Shown in pieces: positions 32,978 to 38,349 of a stretch of 64,000 bases of DNA. Where the stretch lies: NCBI GenBank assembly GCA_015709215.1, contig JACCQN010000012.1, positions 1 through 64,000 of the forward strand, in the 5' to 3' direction. This stretch comes from Bacteroidales bacterium (GTDB taxonomy: Bacteria > Bacteroidota > Bacteroidia > Bacteroidales > F082). Every line of letters begins with the position of its first letter. The first letter of the stretch is position 1. The position numbers and the translations under genes are program-made. The notes beneath the pieces are model-generated. The model ran no database searches, was not told where the DNA came from, and saw only the letters and a program-made list of their open reading frames with translations.

Positions 32978-35900
32978 ATGACTCCTTCACGACCTGATTT
33001 TCTTAACCGGAAGTTTACCTTTAATGATACCGCTTTTACAAGTTTGATGAAAAAGCGTATTTATAATGTGCTTTTGATTTCTTCGGTTTATGATGCTTTT
33101 ATTCTGGAAGAAGATGGTCGTATTGATGAGCAGATATTTAATGAATACGTATCTCTTAATCTGCGTTACCCGCCTGGATTTATCCTTACCAGTGATCCCA
33201 AGGAGGTTAAAAACATTCTGAAGAATGAGAAGATAGATCTGGTAATTGAAATGCTTAGTGCCGAGGATAGAAGCACATACAAGCTGGCTGAGGAAATTAA
33301 AGCTGATTATCCCGAAATTCCTATCGTAATTTTAACACCATTTTCGCGCGAACTTTCATTAAAGATCGACAGAAATGAGCTCAAGGGGATCGATTATGTT
33401 TTTAACTGGTTGGGAAATGCTGATATATTACTTGCGATTATCAAACTCATTGAGGACAAAATGAATGCCGAACACGACATCGTTGATATAGGTGTGCAAT
33501 GTATTATTCTCGTTGAGGATTCGGTACGGTTTTATAGCAGTTATCTGCCCAATATTTACAAAATCATCTTTAAGCAATCGAAATCCTTTATGACTGAAGG
33601 CCTCAATGAACACCAAAAGATGTTGCGGATGCGCGGGCGGCCTAAAATTTTGCTTGCTACAACTTACGAAGAAGCTATTGAACTTTACAAAAAATACAAG
33701 CAAAATATACTCGGAATCATTTCAGATATTTCTTACACACGTGAAGGACAATTAGATAGCCAGGCTGGTATCAGGCTGTGTAAAGTAGTTAAGAAGAACG
33801 ATCGCTATATGCCACTGTTGCTACAGTCGTCTGATGCCAAAAATGAAGAGATAGCCAAAGAGATCAAAGTTGGTTTTATCAATAAAAACTCCAAGACTTT
33901 ATCCCTTGAACTGCGCCGGTTTATTAAAGAATATTTTGCATTTGGAGATTTTGTTTTTAAGGATCCGGAAACTCATCAGGAAGTGATGCGTGCTGCCGAC
34001 CTTAAAGCTCTTCAGGAGAAGATTTTCCAGGTTCCAAATAATGCTTTGCAGTATCATATCGAACGCAACCACTTGTCGAAATGGTTGCGTGCCCGCGCTT
34101 TGTTTCCTTTGGCTGATTTATTTAAAATGTTTACACCTGAGGATTTTCAGGATTGCGATGAGATCAAACGTTTTGTTTTTGATGCTATTGCGAATTTCAG
34201 GCTTAACAAAGCCCGTGGCGTGATTGCCGAGTTTAATCGCGAGAGTTTTGATGAGTATTTGTCATTCACTCGCATCGGACAGGGGTCAATTGGCGGGAAA
34301 GCCCGTGGTTTGGCTTTTTTGGATTCTTTGATCAAGCGTAATAGATTGAATGAAAAGTTTGAAGGCATTACCATTGGAATACCGCGTACTGTAGTGCTTT
34401 GTACGGATGTTTTTGATGATTTTATGGAGGAAAACAACCTCTATACCATCGCTTTATCAGATGAAGCTACGGATGAGGAAATTTTAAACCAATTTATTGA
34501 AGCCCGCCTGCCTTTTCGCATTCATGAGGATCTATATACCTTGATTTCCGTTATTCGCAATCCTATTGCAATTCGTTCTTCTAGTTTGCTCGAAGATTCA
34601 CATTATCAACCATTTGCTGGTATTTATTCAACTTATATGATACCAGTTGCCGAGAATGATGAACGCACTATGATCAAAATGCTCAGCAATGCGATCAAAA
34701 GTGTTTATGCCTCAGCATTTTTTAAAGACAGCAAAGCTTATATGACGGCCACTAAAAATATGATCGATGAAGAAAAGATGGCTATTGTAGTGCAGGAAGT
34801 TTGCGGAAAACGCTACAATGATCATTATTATCCCGCATTATCGGGTGTTGCCAGGTCGATAAATTTTTACCCCATACCTCCCGAAAAATCAGAAGATGGC
34901 ATTGCAAATATTGCATTGGGGCTTGGTAAGTTAATCGTCGATGGTGGTCAAAGCATTCGTTTTTCGCCAAAATATCCCAACAAAGTGCTGCAAACCAGTC
35001 AGCCTGATTTGGCCTTGCGCGAGACACAAAAAGTGTTTTATGCCTTAAATATGGATCCGAACAGCTTTCAACCTACAGTAGATGATGCAGCAAATTTGCT
35101 TCAATTAAGGGTTGCAGAAGCCGATAAAGATGGTTCATTACGATTGGTTTGCTCTACTTATGATTTTCAAAATCATATGTTGCGCGATGGCTATCACCAG
35201 GGAGGGAAAAAGCTGGTTACTTTTGCTAATATTCTTAAATACAAGTCGTTTCCATTAGCTGAAATATTGCTCGAAGTTTTGCGTGTTGGTCAGCTAGAGA
35301 TGGGTAAGCCAATCGAAATTGAATTTGCCGTTGAGCTTAACAAACCCAAAGACATGGTTAAGATGTTTTATGTGTTGCAGATTAGGCCGATAGTAAGCTT
35401 AAATGAATCGGTAGATATTGATATAGAACAGATTAGAAAAGAAGATTGTATCATCACTGCTGATCACACACTGGGTAATGGATTGATTAAAGGAATAAAT
35501 GATTTTGTGTATGTGAAGCCTGAAGCTTTTAATCCGGCCAAAACCAGAGATATTGCCGAACTGGTTGGTAAGTTGAACGCAAAGTTTTTAGAGGAAGGGA
35601 AGTATTACATCCTCGTTGGGCCGGGAAGATGGGGTTCGAGTGATCCGTGGTTGGGAATTCCTGTCAAATGGCCTCAGATTTCATCAGCACGCGTAATTAT
35701 TGAGTCGGGTCTTGAAAACTACCGCATCGACCCCAGTCAGGGTACTCATTTTTTCCAAAATCTTACATCATTTGGTGTTGGATATTTTACCATAAATCCC
35801 TTTATCAAAGATGGTTTTTACGACTTGAAATTTCTTGAGCAACAGGAAGTTTATTATGAGGACGATTATATCAGGCATATCAGATTTGAGCAATCGCTTA

Positions 35901-35983
35901 ATATAATTATCGATGGCCGCAAAAATCGGGGCATGATTTTGAAGCCTGGAGAAGAAGTCCCCATGATCAAAAAAGGCTTATAG
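32978..35983 (+). CDS. PEP-synthase-like protein with N-terminal receiver-like domains
   Basis: 1001 residues. Residues 30-140 and 170-310 look like receiver domains (LLISSVYDAFILEEDGR; QCIILVEDSVRFYSSY; LGIISDISYTREGQ; MPLLLQSSD), but catalytic Asp patterns are weak. From about 430 comes the pyruvate/PEP dikinase ATP-binding domain (RIGQGSIGGKARGLAFLD, IAIRSSSLLEDSHYQPFAGIYS). The swivelling phosphohistidine domain of PEP synthase (TSHAA) is absent, and the C-terminus is a domain with GPGRWGSSDPWLGIPVKW near 885. A phosphoryl-transfer or regulatory role is likely; the substrate is unknown. It stands alone in its transcript. Confidence 0.82.
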   Translation: MTPSRPDFLNRKFTFNDTAFTSLMKKRIYNVLLISSVYDAFILEEDGRIDEQIFNEYVSLNLRYPPGFILTSDPKEVKNILKNEKIDLVIEMLSAEDRSTYKLAEEIKADYPEIPIVILTPFSRELSLKIDRNELKGIDYVFNWLGNADILLAIIKLIEDKMNAEHDIVDIGVQCIILVEDSVRFYSSYLPNIYKIIFKQSKSFMTEGLNEHQKMLRMRGRPKILLATTYEEAIELYKKYKQNILGIISDISYTREGQLDSQAGIRLCKVVKKNDRYMPLLLQSSDAKNEEIAKEIKVGFINKNSKTLSLELRRFIKEYFAFGDFVFKDPETHQEVMRAADLKALQEKIFQVPNNALQYHIERNHLSKWLRARALFPLADLFKMFTPEDFQDCDEIKRFVFDAIANFRLNKARGVIAEFNRESFDEYLSFTRIGQGSIGGKARGLAFLDSLIKRNRLNEKFEGITIGIPRTVVLCTDVFDDFMEENNLYTIALSDEATDEEILNQFIEARLPFRIHEDLYTLISVIRNPIAIRSSSLLEDSHYQPFAGIYSTYMIPVAENDERTMIKMLSNAIKSVYASAFFKDSKAYMTATKNMIDEEKMAIVVQEVCGKRYNDHYYPALSGVARSINFYPIPPEKSEDGIANIALGLGKLIVDGGQSIRFSPKYPNKVLQTSQPDLALRETQKVFYALNMDPNSFQPTVDDAANLLQLRVAEADKDGSLRLVCSTYDFQNHMLRDGYHQGGKKLVTFANILKYKSFPLAEILLEVLRVGQLEMGKPIEIEFAVELNKPKDMVKMFYVLQIRPIVSLNESVDIDIEQIRKEDCIITADHTLGNGLIKGINDFVYVKPEAFNPAKTRDIAELVGKLNAKFLEEGKYYILVGPGRWGSSDPWLGIPVKWPQISSARVIIESGLENYRIDPSQGTHFFQNLTSFGVGYFTINPFIKDGFYDLKFLEQQEVYYEDDYIRHIRFEQSLNIIIDGRKNRGMILKPGEEVPMIKKGL

Positions 35984-36507: not shown

Positions 36508-38349
36508 TTAATGAATCATATTTTCGGGGGCAAGAATTTTATCCAGTTCGGCCTTTGATAACAATTGTTTCTCGAGTACCAGTTCATAAACGCTTCGGCT
36601 GCTTTCGAGTGCTTCTTTTGCGATTATTGTTGATGCCTCATAACCGATATAGGGGTTGAGGGCAGTAACGAGTCCGATTGAATTTTGAACAGTTTGCCTG
36701 CAATGTGCTTCATTGGCAGTAATGCCTGAAATACAGCGATTAGTGAGTACTTTCATGCCGTTTTTCAACATTTCAATAGATTCAAAAAGGCTTTGAACGA
36801 TCACGGGTTCCATCACGTTGAGTTCAAGTTGTCCTGCTTCAGCAGCCAGCGATACCGTCAGGTCGTTGCCAATCACCTTGAAAGCAATTTGGTTGACTAC
36901 TTCTGGGATAACAGGATTAACTTTGCCAGGCATTATAGTAGATCCGGGCTGCATGGGAGGCAGATTAATTTCATTTAGACCTGCCCTGGGGCCCGAAGAT
37001 AGTAAGCGCAGATCGTTCGACATTTTGGAGAGTTTAACCGCCAATCGTTTCAAACTTCCTGAATAACTGACAAAATCGCCGGTATCCTGAGTGGCTTCAA
37101 TCAAATTTCGGGCAAGTTTTATATCCATCCCTGTTATTACGCGCAGATGTGGGATTACTTTTTCGCTGTATTGTGGGTCAGCGTTAATGCCAGTTCCAAT
37201 GGCTGTTCCACCCATATTCACTTCCAGGAATAAGGCCGCTGACCGGTTCAATTGCTGTACTTCTTCTTCGAGCGTAACAGCAAACGCTTCAAAGGTTTGT
37301 CCCAGTGTCATCGGCACAGCATCCTGAAGCTGGGTGCGTCCCATCTTGATGATTCTGGCGAATTCGCGGCCTTTGACATGAAGGGCTGTAATTAATTGTT
37401 GCAAAACAACCACCAGCTTTTCGTTGGCTTTGATCAGGGCAATTTTTATGGCAGTTGGATAAACATCGTTAGTGCTTTGAGAGAGGTTAACGTGATTGTT
37501 GGGATGACAATGTTCGTATTGTCCCCTTTCTTTTTCCATGATTTCCAGCGCACGATTGGCAATCACTTCATTGGCATTCATATTGGTAGAAGTGCCTGCA
37601 CCACCTTGGATCATATCTACAACAAACTGCGACTGAAAGCGGTTGTTGATTATCTCCTGACAGGCATGAATAATTGCTTTGGCAATATTTTCGGGGAGGG
37701 ATCCCAATTCGAGATTGGCTTTGGCAGCGGCCATTTTTACCATGGCAAGTGATTTTACAAGGTCAGGAAAAAAACTGAGCGTGATGCCGCTGATGTTGAA
37801 GTTTTCGAGTGCTCTGAGTGTTTGAATCCCGTAATAGTATTCATATGGCACCTCCCTTTCGCCAAGTAAATCATGTTCGCGACGGGTTTTGCCCGATTCG
37901 TATTGCGAGGTAATATTTGTTGCTCTGGCATTGGCATAACGCATGCGTCGCGAAACAACTCGCGTTATATTAGAGGAAATGGCCAAAGCAATCGAACCGG
38001 AGCTTTTAAATGCTTCTTTTGAAAGTGTGAGTGCCAAAGTGTCCTCAACAGCTCTTGCAGAAGTAGAATGAGGCGAATCTTCCATCAGGGAACCTTCTCC
38101 CAAAAAATCATGTTTGCCAAAATAGGTTATGGTTTGTTCTTCACCAAAAGCTGTGGTTTTATAAAGCTCAACTTTTCCATATACAATTAAAAATATGAAG
38201 GTACGTGAGGTGTTTTCCGCAAACAATATATCTCCGGCTGAATATGAGACGTCTTTTGCCTGTTTGGCAATTGTATTAAGTTCATCGTCGTTTAAACCTC
38301 TGAAAAGCTCAATGTTTTTAATGAGCTGAATTTTATCTGTTAGTTTCAC
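36508..38349 (-). CDS. aspA: Aspartate ammonia-lyase fused to a cyclic-nucleotide-binding-like domain
   Basis: 613 residues. Residues 1-140 are a CRP-type sensor (LFRGLNDDELNTIAKQAKDV, ILFAENTS, HDFLGEGSLMEDSPHSTSARA). The usual phosphate-binding Arg-Ser of CRP (ERSAW) reads HSTSA here, so cAMP binding is doubtful. Residues 150-613 are aspartase: HDLLGEREVPYEYYYG, HPNNHVNLSQSTNDVYP, GRTQLQDAVPMTLG and [19 protein letters not shown], the last being aspartase-type. It deaminates aspartate to fumarate and ammonia. The fusion suggests allosteric control by an unknown small ligand. A -7 element TACTTTTG is at 38379-38372. Confidence 0.93.
   Translation of the reverse strand: MKLTDKIQLIKNIELFRGLNDDELNTIAKQAKDVSYSAGDILFAENTSRTFIFLIVYGKVELYKTTAFGEEQTITYFGKHDFLGEGSLMEDSPHSTSARAVEDTLALTLSKEAFKSSGSIALAISSNITRVVSRRMRYANARATNITSQYESGKTRREHDLLGEREVPYEYYYGIQTLRALENFNISGITLSFFPDLVKSLAMVKMAAAKANLELGSLPENIAKAIIHACQEIINNRFQSQFVVDMIQGGAGTSTNMNANEVIANRALEIMEKERGQYEHCHPNNHVNLSQSTNDVYPTAIKIALIKANEKLVVVLQQLITALHVKGREFARIIKMGRTQLQDAVPMTLGQTFEAFAVTLEEEVQQLNRSAALFLEVNMGGTAIGTGINADPQYSEKVIPHLRVITGMDIKLARNLIEATQDTGDFVSYSGSLKRLAVKLSKMSNDLRLLSSGPRAGLNEINLPPMQPGSTIMPGKVNPVIPEVVNQIAFKVIGNDLTVSLAAEAGQLELNVMEPVIVQSLFESIEMLKNGMKVLTNRCISGITANEAHCRQTVQNSIGLVTALNPYIGYEASTIIAKEALESSRSVYELVLEKQLLSKAELDKILAPENMIH

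Follow-up and report, generated by a model that had tools for sequence, protein, structure and literature searches.

A gene in the 64,000 nt stretch of Bacteroidales DNA analysed here (contig JACCQN010000012.1, lineage F082; hereafter the window) encodes a protein whose C-terminal part is most likely a swivelling phosphohistidine domain, and the family to which it belongs is physically linked to glutamate dehydrogenase (GDH) across many bacterial families. The gene (32978-35983, + strand) is an intact open reading frame that runs from an ATG to its own stop codon and specifies 1001 residues, as an earlier sequence-only reading had stated. We tentatively propose, with slightly less than even confidence, that the protein is a member of the superfamily that comprises phosphoenolpyruvate (PEP) synthase (PEPS), PPDK and RPH, and that it serves as a receiver-controlled, AMP-forming phosphotransferase at the glutamate/2-oxoglutarate node, its likeliest target being GDH.

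The sequence-only reading held that the phosphohistidine domain of this superfamily is missing and that an unknown domain has replaced it. The first claim stands for the literal TSHAA motif, which is absent from the window protein. In addition, neither PF00391 (PEP-utilizers) nor a PEP/pyruvate-barrel family is among the three hits that a Pfam scan of the protein returned at E 10. Structure prediction and conservation nevertheless reveal a probable phosphohistidine motif, G-T-H-F-F, within what is probably a swivelling fold, and a concealed motif of this kind is what the sequence-only reading had named as its own refutation. A full-length model (mean pLDDT 85.1, pTM 0.78) was built from an alignment of 55 rows, which consists of the window protein and 54 of 97 full-length relatives (at least 950 residues, mutual identity below 72%). 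It is laid out as two receivers (REC1 and REC2), a mainly helical linker, an ATP-grasp domain and a distinct C-terminal domain, and residues 818-1001 folded alone reach a pLDDT of 93.1. A Foldseek search with the full model places receiver proteins at the top.

Structural neighbours were ranked with VIA, which re-aligns the 1000 best Foldseek chains; the carrier-domain group is visible only after this re-ranking, and families missing from the Foldseek and VIA lists may match as well. For the C-terminal domain alone, carrier-type domains fill the first nine rows (Z 5.6-6.8), specifically 2fm4 (the PPDK carrier domain), 2e28 (pyruvate kinase), 5jvn and 5lu4 (PPDK), 5hv2 (RPH), 5woy (Enzyme I), and 1kbl, 2x0s and 2r82 (all PPDK). 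The top row, 2fm4, has a Z of 6.8 and a root mean square deviation (rmsd) of 3.6, with 118 of 128 residues aligned at 14% identity. The window domain differs from 2fm4 in its GPGRWGS loop, in its histidine motif and in having no detectable PF00391 sequence homology. The 2e28 match covers residues 476-587, which we take to be the carrier-like extra domain of pyruvate kinase.

Comparisons with the full-length model are consistent with this assignment. The model aligns with PEPS 2ols (model 428-990, chain 7-466; Z 25.4, rmsd 4.2, 362 residues aligned), with PPDK 1kbl (model 418-1001, chain 3-519; Z 17.5, rmsd 4.9, 366 residues aligned) and with RPH 5hv3 (Z 25.9, rmsd 5.3; model 428-989, chain 7-866), each span being given by its first and last residues only. 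All three alignments extend past the ATP-grasp domain and reach the carrier domain, which in RPH comprises residues 767-865 (PMC4844700).

The order of strands and helices in the C-terminal domain is also consistent with the carrier fold. In the model, helix 924-931 opens at H924 and follows strand 904-910 and a loop, and the PPDK sequence encoded by the same genome carries its TSH-AA motif at the equivalent place. The catalytic histidine in PPDK structures starts a helix after a strand in the same manner, which suggests that H924 occupies the position of this residue. Of the protein's 13 histidines, H924 is the sole one that is invariant among the 55 aligned relatives. Furthermore, in a sample of the phylum, where the full sequence served as query and members were then selected by their GxGRWG loop, G[ST]HFF is present in 52 of 52 proteins and in none of the other 427 of the 479 proteins encoded in those regions. 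Because the nine structural rows agree, the register fits and H924 is conserved, the domain is a probable phosphoryl carrier, most likely one that has diverged past sequence recognition and whose motif has changed.

The ATP-binding part was correctly named in the sequence-only reading as a dikinase domain. Pfam PPDK_N matches residues 437-821 with 139.9 bits (cut-off 27), and K441, R533, T552, E780, E782 and Q801 are each present in all 55 rows. K441 lies in a GGK motif that is also found in the PPDK of the same genome, and it may be the counterpart of Lys22 of RPH. An hmmsearch alignment, which begins after K441, pairs R533 and T552 with Arg117 and Thr136 of RPH-Lm. Mutation of these RPH residues abolished resistance while ATP pyrophosphatase activity was kept (PMC4844700). 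A MAFFT mapping onto the PPDK and two PEPS-like frames was misaligned and was dropped. Judged by these conserved catalytic residues, the ATP site looks intact.

Several observations weigh against the reading of both domains. Pfam scans of the 55 C-terminal domains gave scattered hits (best E 0.015) without PF00391, hhalign found no match between these domains and 16 PF00391-type domains, and Foldseek alone returned nothing meaningful for the domain (best E 0.025). VIA itself warns that a Z below 8 may reflect a common arrangement, and the carrier rows lie at 5.6-6.8; a chaperonin, the highest-placed unrelated row, comes after them at 5.4 and is tied with them by VIA's rule. The top row for the full-length model, RPH 5hv1 (Z 26.4, 291 residues), stops at chain residue 740, before the carrier domain. 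The invariance of H924 is partly circular because one of the two patterns that retrieved the 55-row relatives includes G[ST]HFF, and in a nine-row alignment free of this bias H360, H924 and H967 are all invariant. Finally, position 803 of the ATP site is arginine in 44 rows and lysine in 11, and all 11 are the long paralogues described below.

Other features set the protein apart from characterised dikinases. The chain ends 13 residues past the last predicted strand (984-988) and no barrel is found by Pfam. Moreover, the ATP-grasp match ends at residue 821 and the C-terminal strands begin at 824, with no rifampin-binding domain between them. An acceptor domain of the PEPS/PPDK kind (PEP/pyruvate barrel) or of the RPH kind (drug-binding) is therefore absent, and both Pfam and the model uphold the sequence-only view that the protein is not a PEP synthase and lacks a pyruvate-binding C-terminal part. 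RPH (5HV1/5HV3/5FBS) shares an ATP-grasp domain that is the best structural match, the essential arginine and threonine and, probably, a C-terminal carrier domain; the window protein differs in having no rifampin-binding domain between the two, in its N-terminal receivers and in its GTHFF motif. PpsA (2OLS) and PPDK (1KBL) likewise have an ATP-grasp domain followed by a carrier, both spanned by the alignments, whereas the window protein has receivers and lacks both the barrel and the TSHA motif. The first half-reaction would probably resemble that of PEPS, PPDK and RPH, with the protein falling outside those families by its acceptor domains.

That the gene encodes a standard PEP synthase or PPDK that was wrongly split or read is very improbable: it has an ATP-grasp domain of that family and one database product of the family is named PEP/pyruvate-binding domain-containing protein, but the reading frame has its own stop, relatives have the same length, there is no PEP/pyruvate barrel, and two other proteins of the same genome carry TSHAA, a PPDK (L032) and L035, so that PEP chemistry does not obviously require the window gene. 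L035 (G000:C49) is a 1392-residue frame with a PPDK-type ATP-grasp and a TSHAA domain, and its length is unlike that of standard PPDK or PEPS.

The strongest clue to function comes from gene neighbourhoods. The family is matched at E 0.001 by 41 of the 198 genomes in the phylum sample, 34 with a core match and seven with a short receiver match alone. Excluding the window's own genome, a GDH gene lies within 3 kb of 48 of 59 members. Of these, 41 of 52 are in the 37 regions read, where GDH is mostly adjacent and in the same direction with a gap of up to ~450 bp, and 7 of 7 are by coordinates. Uniform placement would predict ~0.46 for the 52, assuming 3.2 GDH genes per 3.8 Mb. In the window's order, 105 of 119 sampled genomes match, of which two do so weakly (G258, 1.4e-4; G268, 6.8e-6), so 103 are counted. 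Among the matches listed, 51 of 148 members have GDH within 5 kb (0.82 expected), and these are spread over 39 genomes out of the 103, of which 94 have a GDH listed. This order count includes the two members of the window's own genome and leaves out the partial rows G249:C483 and G203:C327; in both samples, tandem family genes that share one GDH are counted separately.

All-against-all clustering of the neighbours of 80 named loci and the window ranks GDH first (32 of 81 loci), with the next clusters at 11. At least two GDH_N matches occur in 60 of 103 genomes with the family and in 0 of 16 without it, including the two weak matches as family-free (Fisher 4e-6 from hand counts; the test ignores kinship, nearly every genome of the order sample being from a different family). 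Four neighbouring GDHs were checked with Pfam, three of these also with NCBIfam. A class of ~580 residues without receivers shows the same arrangement, with GDH within 3 kb in 7 of 9 members (572-600 residues, recounted). In the window's own genome the long paralogue stands beside GDH with a LuxR-type response regulator between them, and 5 of the 7 genomes of the genus, own included, have a GDH no more than 2 kb from the long paralogue; of the other two, one has GDH at a distance of 22 kb and the long paralogue was not found in the second. An annotated record of the family, WP_041525632.1 of Parabacteroides distasonis (54.5% identity over 98%), has gdhA adjoining in divergent orientation and, three genes further downstream, another GDH; it differs in bearing the NCBI placeholder 'PEP/pyruvate-binding domain-containing protein' without an assigned function.

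The gene neighbourhood, which the sequence-only reading had proposed as a check, thus links the family to GDH while the window gene itself is not so linked, and this is one of several findings that tell against a GDH target. No GDH gene lies within 10 kb of the window gene, nor in any of nine relative regions read (four from the genus and five from the family). For eleven of the 59 phylum members the nearest 3 kb contain no GDH, although two have one within ~5 kb and two are near a contig end, and 97 of 148 order members have none within 5 kb among the matches listed. A GDH_N match is absent in four family-bearing genomes, two of them 97% complete. Furthermore, a comparison of 47 GDHs in family loci, among them the flavobacterial-type enzymes of L046 and L130 (one each), with 19 from genomes that lack a full-length member found no alignment column that tells the two sets apart, which means that there is no phosphosite signature for GDH as the acceptor.

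Apparent transfer between lineages adds to the association. Lutibacter sp. B1 (L130; Flavobacteriaceae) and genome G107 (L046), the latter being the sole full-length match among 18 sampled genomes of family f5, both have the order GDH, family gene, GDH, and both come from a group in which the family is mostly absent. The upstream GDHs are 75-80% identical to those of family-free genomes of the same class. The downstream GDHs are 72-73% identical to family-linked Bacteroidales-type GDHs and ~62% identical to family-free ones. Judging from these identities, the family gene was apparently transferred along with its GDH, and both cases, whose family proteins are 77% identical, may represent one event. 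A locus in Delongbacteria (L124) is less clear, since its GDH groups with linked GDHs in a tree yet is nearest by identity to family-free ones.

The N-terminal half agrees with the two receiver-like segments noted previously. Pfam Response_reg falls just below its cut-off (28.5 bits against 30.2), with its best stretch at 71-129 in REC1 and, at E 10, a second counted stretch without a position. At the end of strand 3 of REC1 the window protein has M92/L93 rather than aspartate; methionine occupies position 92 in 50 of 55 rows, the column otherwise holding A, W or L, and no aspartate is found among the residues printed for 91-93. REC1 is a degenerate receiver without a phospho-acceptor aspartate. 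REC2 matches solved receivers in the model (Z ~13-14, rmsd ~2 A over ~115 residues), and its pocket residues E180, D250, S284 and K303 are each found in all 55 rows and D181 in 53. By the model, REC2 is a canonical-looking receiver with a complete acidic pocket. In the linker, DUF5752 (PF19027) was detected in five of nine relatives scanned but gave no match at E 0.01 in the window protein.

Table 1. Positions in the window of the gene, its predicted domains and candidate functional residues.
Feature	Residues	Position	Strand	Basis
Whole gene, REC1-REC2-linker-ATP-grasp-probable carrier domain protein	1001 aa	32978..35983	+	Open reading frame, Pfam, model
REC1, degenerate receiver	~27-160	33056..33457	+	Pfam 71-129, secondary structure, alignment columns
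REC2, receiver with long insertion after strand 1	172-322	33491..33943	+	Model match, alignment columns
Codon of candidate phospho-acceptor Asp of REC2	D250	33725..33727	+	Alignment columns
Linker, mainly helical	325-430	33950..34267	+	Model; DUF5752 (PF19027) scans of relatives
ATP-grasp domain (PPDK_N), with K441, R533, T552, E780, E782, Q801, R803	437-821	34286..35440	+	Pfam, hmmsearch, alignment columns
C-terminal domain, probable diverged swivelling phosphohistidine (phosphoryl carrier) domain	822-990	35441..35947	+	Structure comparison
G-P-G-R-W-G-S loop	881-887	35618..35638	+	P882-G886 invariant in 55, G881 nearly
Codon of candidate phosphohistidine in G-T-H-F-F	H924	35747..35749	+	Invariance in 55, helix start in model

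These features can be combined into a mechanism. The ATP-grasp domain would bind Mg-ATP through its conserved residues, and by analogy with PPDK and RPH chemistry H924 of the swivelling domain would accept the beta-phosphoryl group with release of AMP and Pi. Because no PEP/pyruvate- or drug-binding domain exists in cis, the phosphohistidine would pass its phosphate to a separate protein or metabolite. REC2 may switch this activity in response to histidine kinase signals, and two-component genes are present in some family clusters: of 37 phylum regions, 5 contain a cluster of 210-residue proteins and 3 a cluster of 478-residue proteins, and the one protein checked from each is a NarL-type response regulator and a PAS histidine kinase, respectively. 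We share with the sequence-only reading the possibility that something other than pyruvate is phosphorylated under receiver control. The GDH linkage indicates that the family most likely works on, or on behalf of, the glutamate/2-oxoglutarate node, and GDH itself would be the likeliest phosphorylated partner. The more specific statement, that a receiver-gated AMP-forming protein phosphotransferase phosphorylates GDH and controls nitrogen/2-oxoglutarate flux in Bacteroidota, is possible but decidedly tentative. We know of no characterised precedent for such enzyme regulation.

A second possibility is that the protein is a metabolic dikinase, which would deliver phosphate to a small molecule of the same node, such as a dicarboxylate, with the GDH link reflecting a shared pathway. 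The characterised relatives known to us with this ATP-grasp and histidine pair act on small molecules, namely pyruvate and, according to PMC4844700, rifampin. A 2-oxoacid:acceptor oxidoreductase beta-subunit cluster is present in 11 of 81 loci, directly upstream of the family gene in 8 (the long paralogue in 6), and the receiver-free class described above is GDH-linked as well. However, the chain retains no domain that would bind an acceptor in the manner of PEPS or RPH, and the two receivers, together with histidine kinase and response regulator genes near some relatives, indicate signalling. We judge this explanation unlikely, though it deserves serious consideration.

Conservation of H924 together with the REC2 pocket in receiver-bearing proteins could also reflect an intramolecular phosphorelay from phospho-H924 to D250, in effect an AMP-forming 'histidine kinase' that senses ATP or energy charge and whose output is the state of its own receiver. 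The ~580-residue class lacks receivers yet retains GxHFF and the GDH link, and we know of no precedent for a relay of this type, which we consider improbable. Similarly improbable, and perhaps a little more so, is a scaffold without catalysis, in which a pseudoenzyme would sense ATP or adenylates, bind GDH and alter its activity without phosphoryl transfer. In favour of this, the histidine motif is unlike TSHAA or TSHGA and the 11 long paralogues carry lysine in place of R803. In contrast, K441, R533, T552, E780, E782, Q801 and H924 are each present in 55 of 55 rows, and a pseudoenzyme would not need them. A receiver-controlled phosphotransferase serving the glutamate/2-oxoglutarate node is the reading that we prefer.

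Two paralogue groups exist, a short one (~1000 residues) that includes the window gene and a long one (~1150 residues), and their representatives in the window's genome are 37% identical. The long paralogue of this genome (L045 7592-11059) is a 1156-residue frame with ~150 extra N-terminal residues and lies by a LuxR-type regulator and GDH; DUF5752 scores 21.5 bits (cut-off 23) between its receivers and ATP-grasp domain. Beyond the receiver-free class, proteins of ~1060 residues are found, and the one scanned has a C-terminal nucleotidyltransferase (25.4 bits, cut-off 21). This domain is carried by L037 6374-9562, a distant member of 1063 residues whose gene run also includes another type of GDH (428 residues); nucleotidylylation is a classic form of control of nitrogen enzymes. 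PADLOC gave weak hits to PDC-S09, a candidate family, in the nucleotidyltransferase part of the 1063-residue relative and no hit on the window protein. The family is also found in named Bacteroides, Parabacteroides, Phocaeicola and Prevotella records. Of the open-licence PMC papers listed by literature searches, judged by title or the start of the abstract, none treats the family or its GDH link.

The window gene is flanked by genes for an FKBP-type isomerase, a nitroreductase and an aspartate ammonia-lyase, an arrangement that is kept in four genus relatives and partly in five family-level regions. The aspartate ammonia-lyase (window 36508-38349, - strand; aspA equivalog above cut-off) is a further ammonia-handling enzyme near the gene. 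This enzyme, which is present in the four genus relatives, carries an N-terminal cyclic-nucleotide-binding domain (68.3 bits), and to our knowledge such a fusion seems unusual. Elsewhere, 2-oxoacid:acceptor oxidoreductase genes lie directly upstream of the long paralogue at L067 (3375-6238), L076, L080 and L090. Family models were applied to the L067 pair alone and do not settle its substrate.

The family is present in most sampled genomes of the order, yet the one annotated record seen bears a placeholder name alone. Its link to GDH provides a concrete functional hypothesis and a testable answer to how GDH might be controlled in these bacteria. If the proposal is true, the chemistry of PEPS and PPDK would be extended from metabolites to signalling. 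Moreover, the disguised histidine domain suggests that other proteins described as having a dikinase ATP-binding domain only may be complete phosphotransferases.

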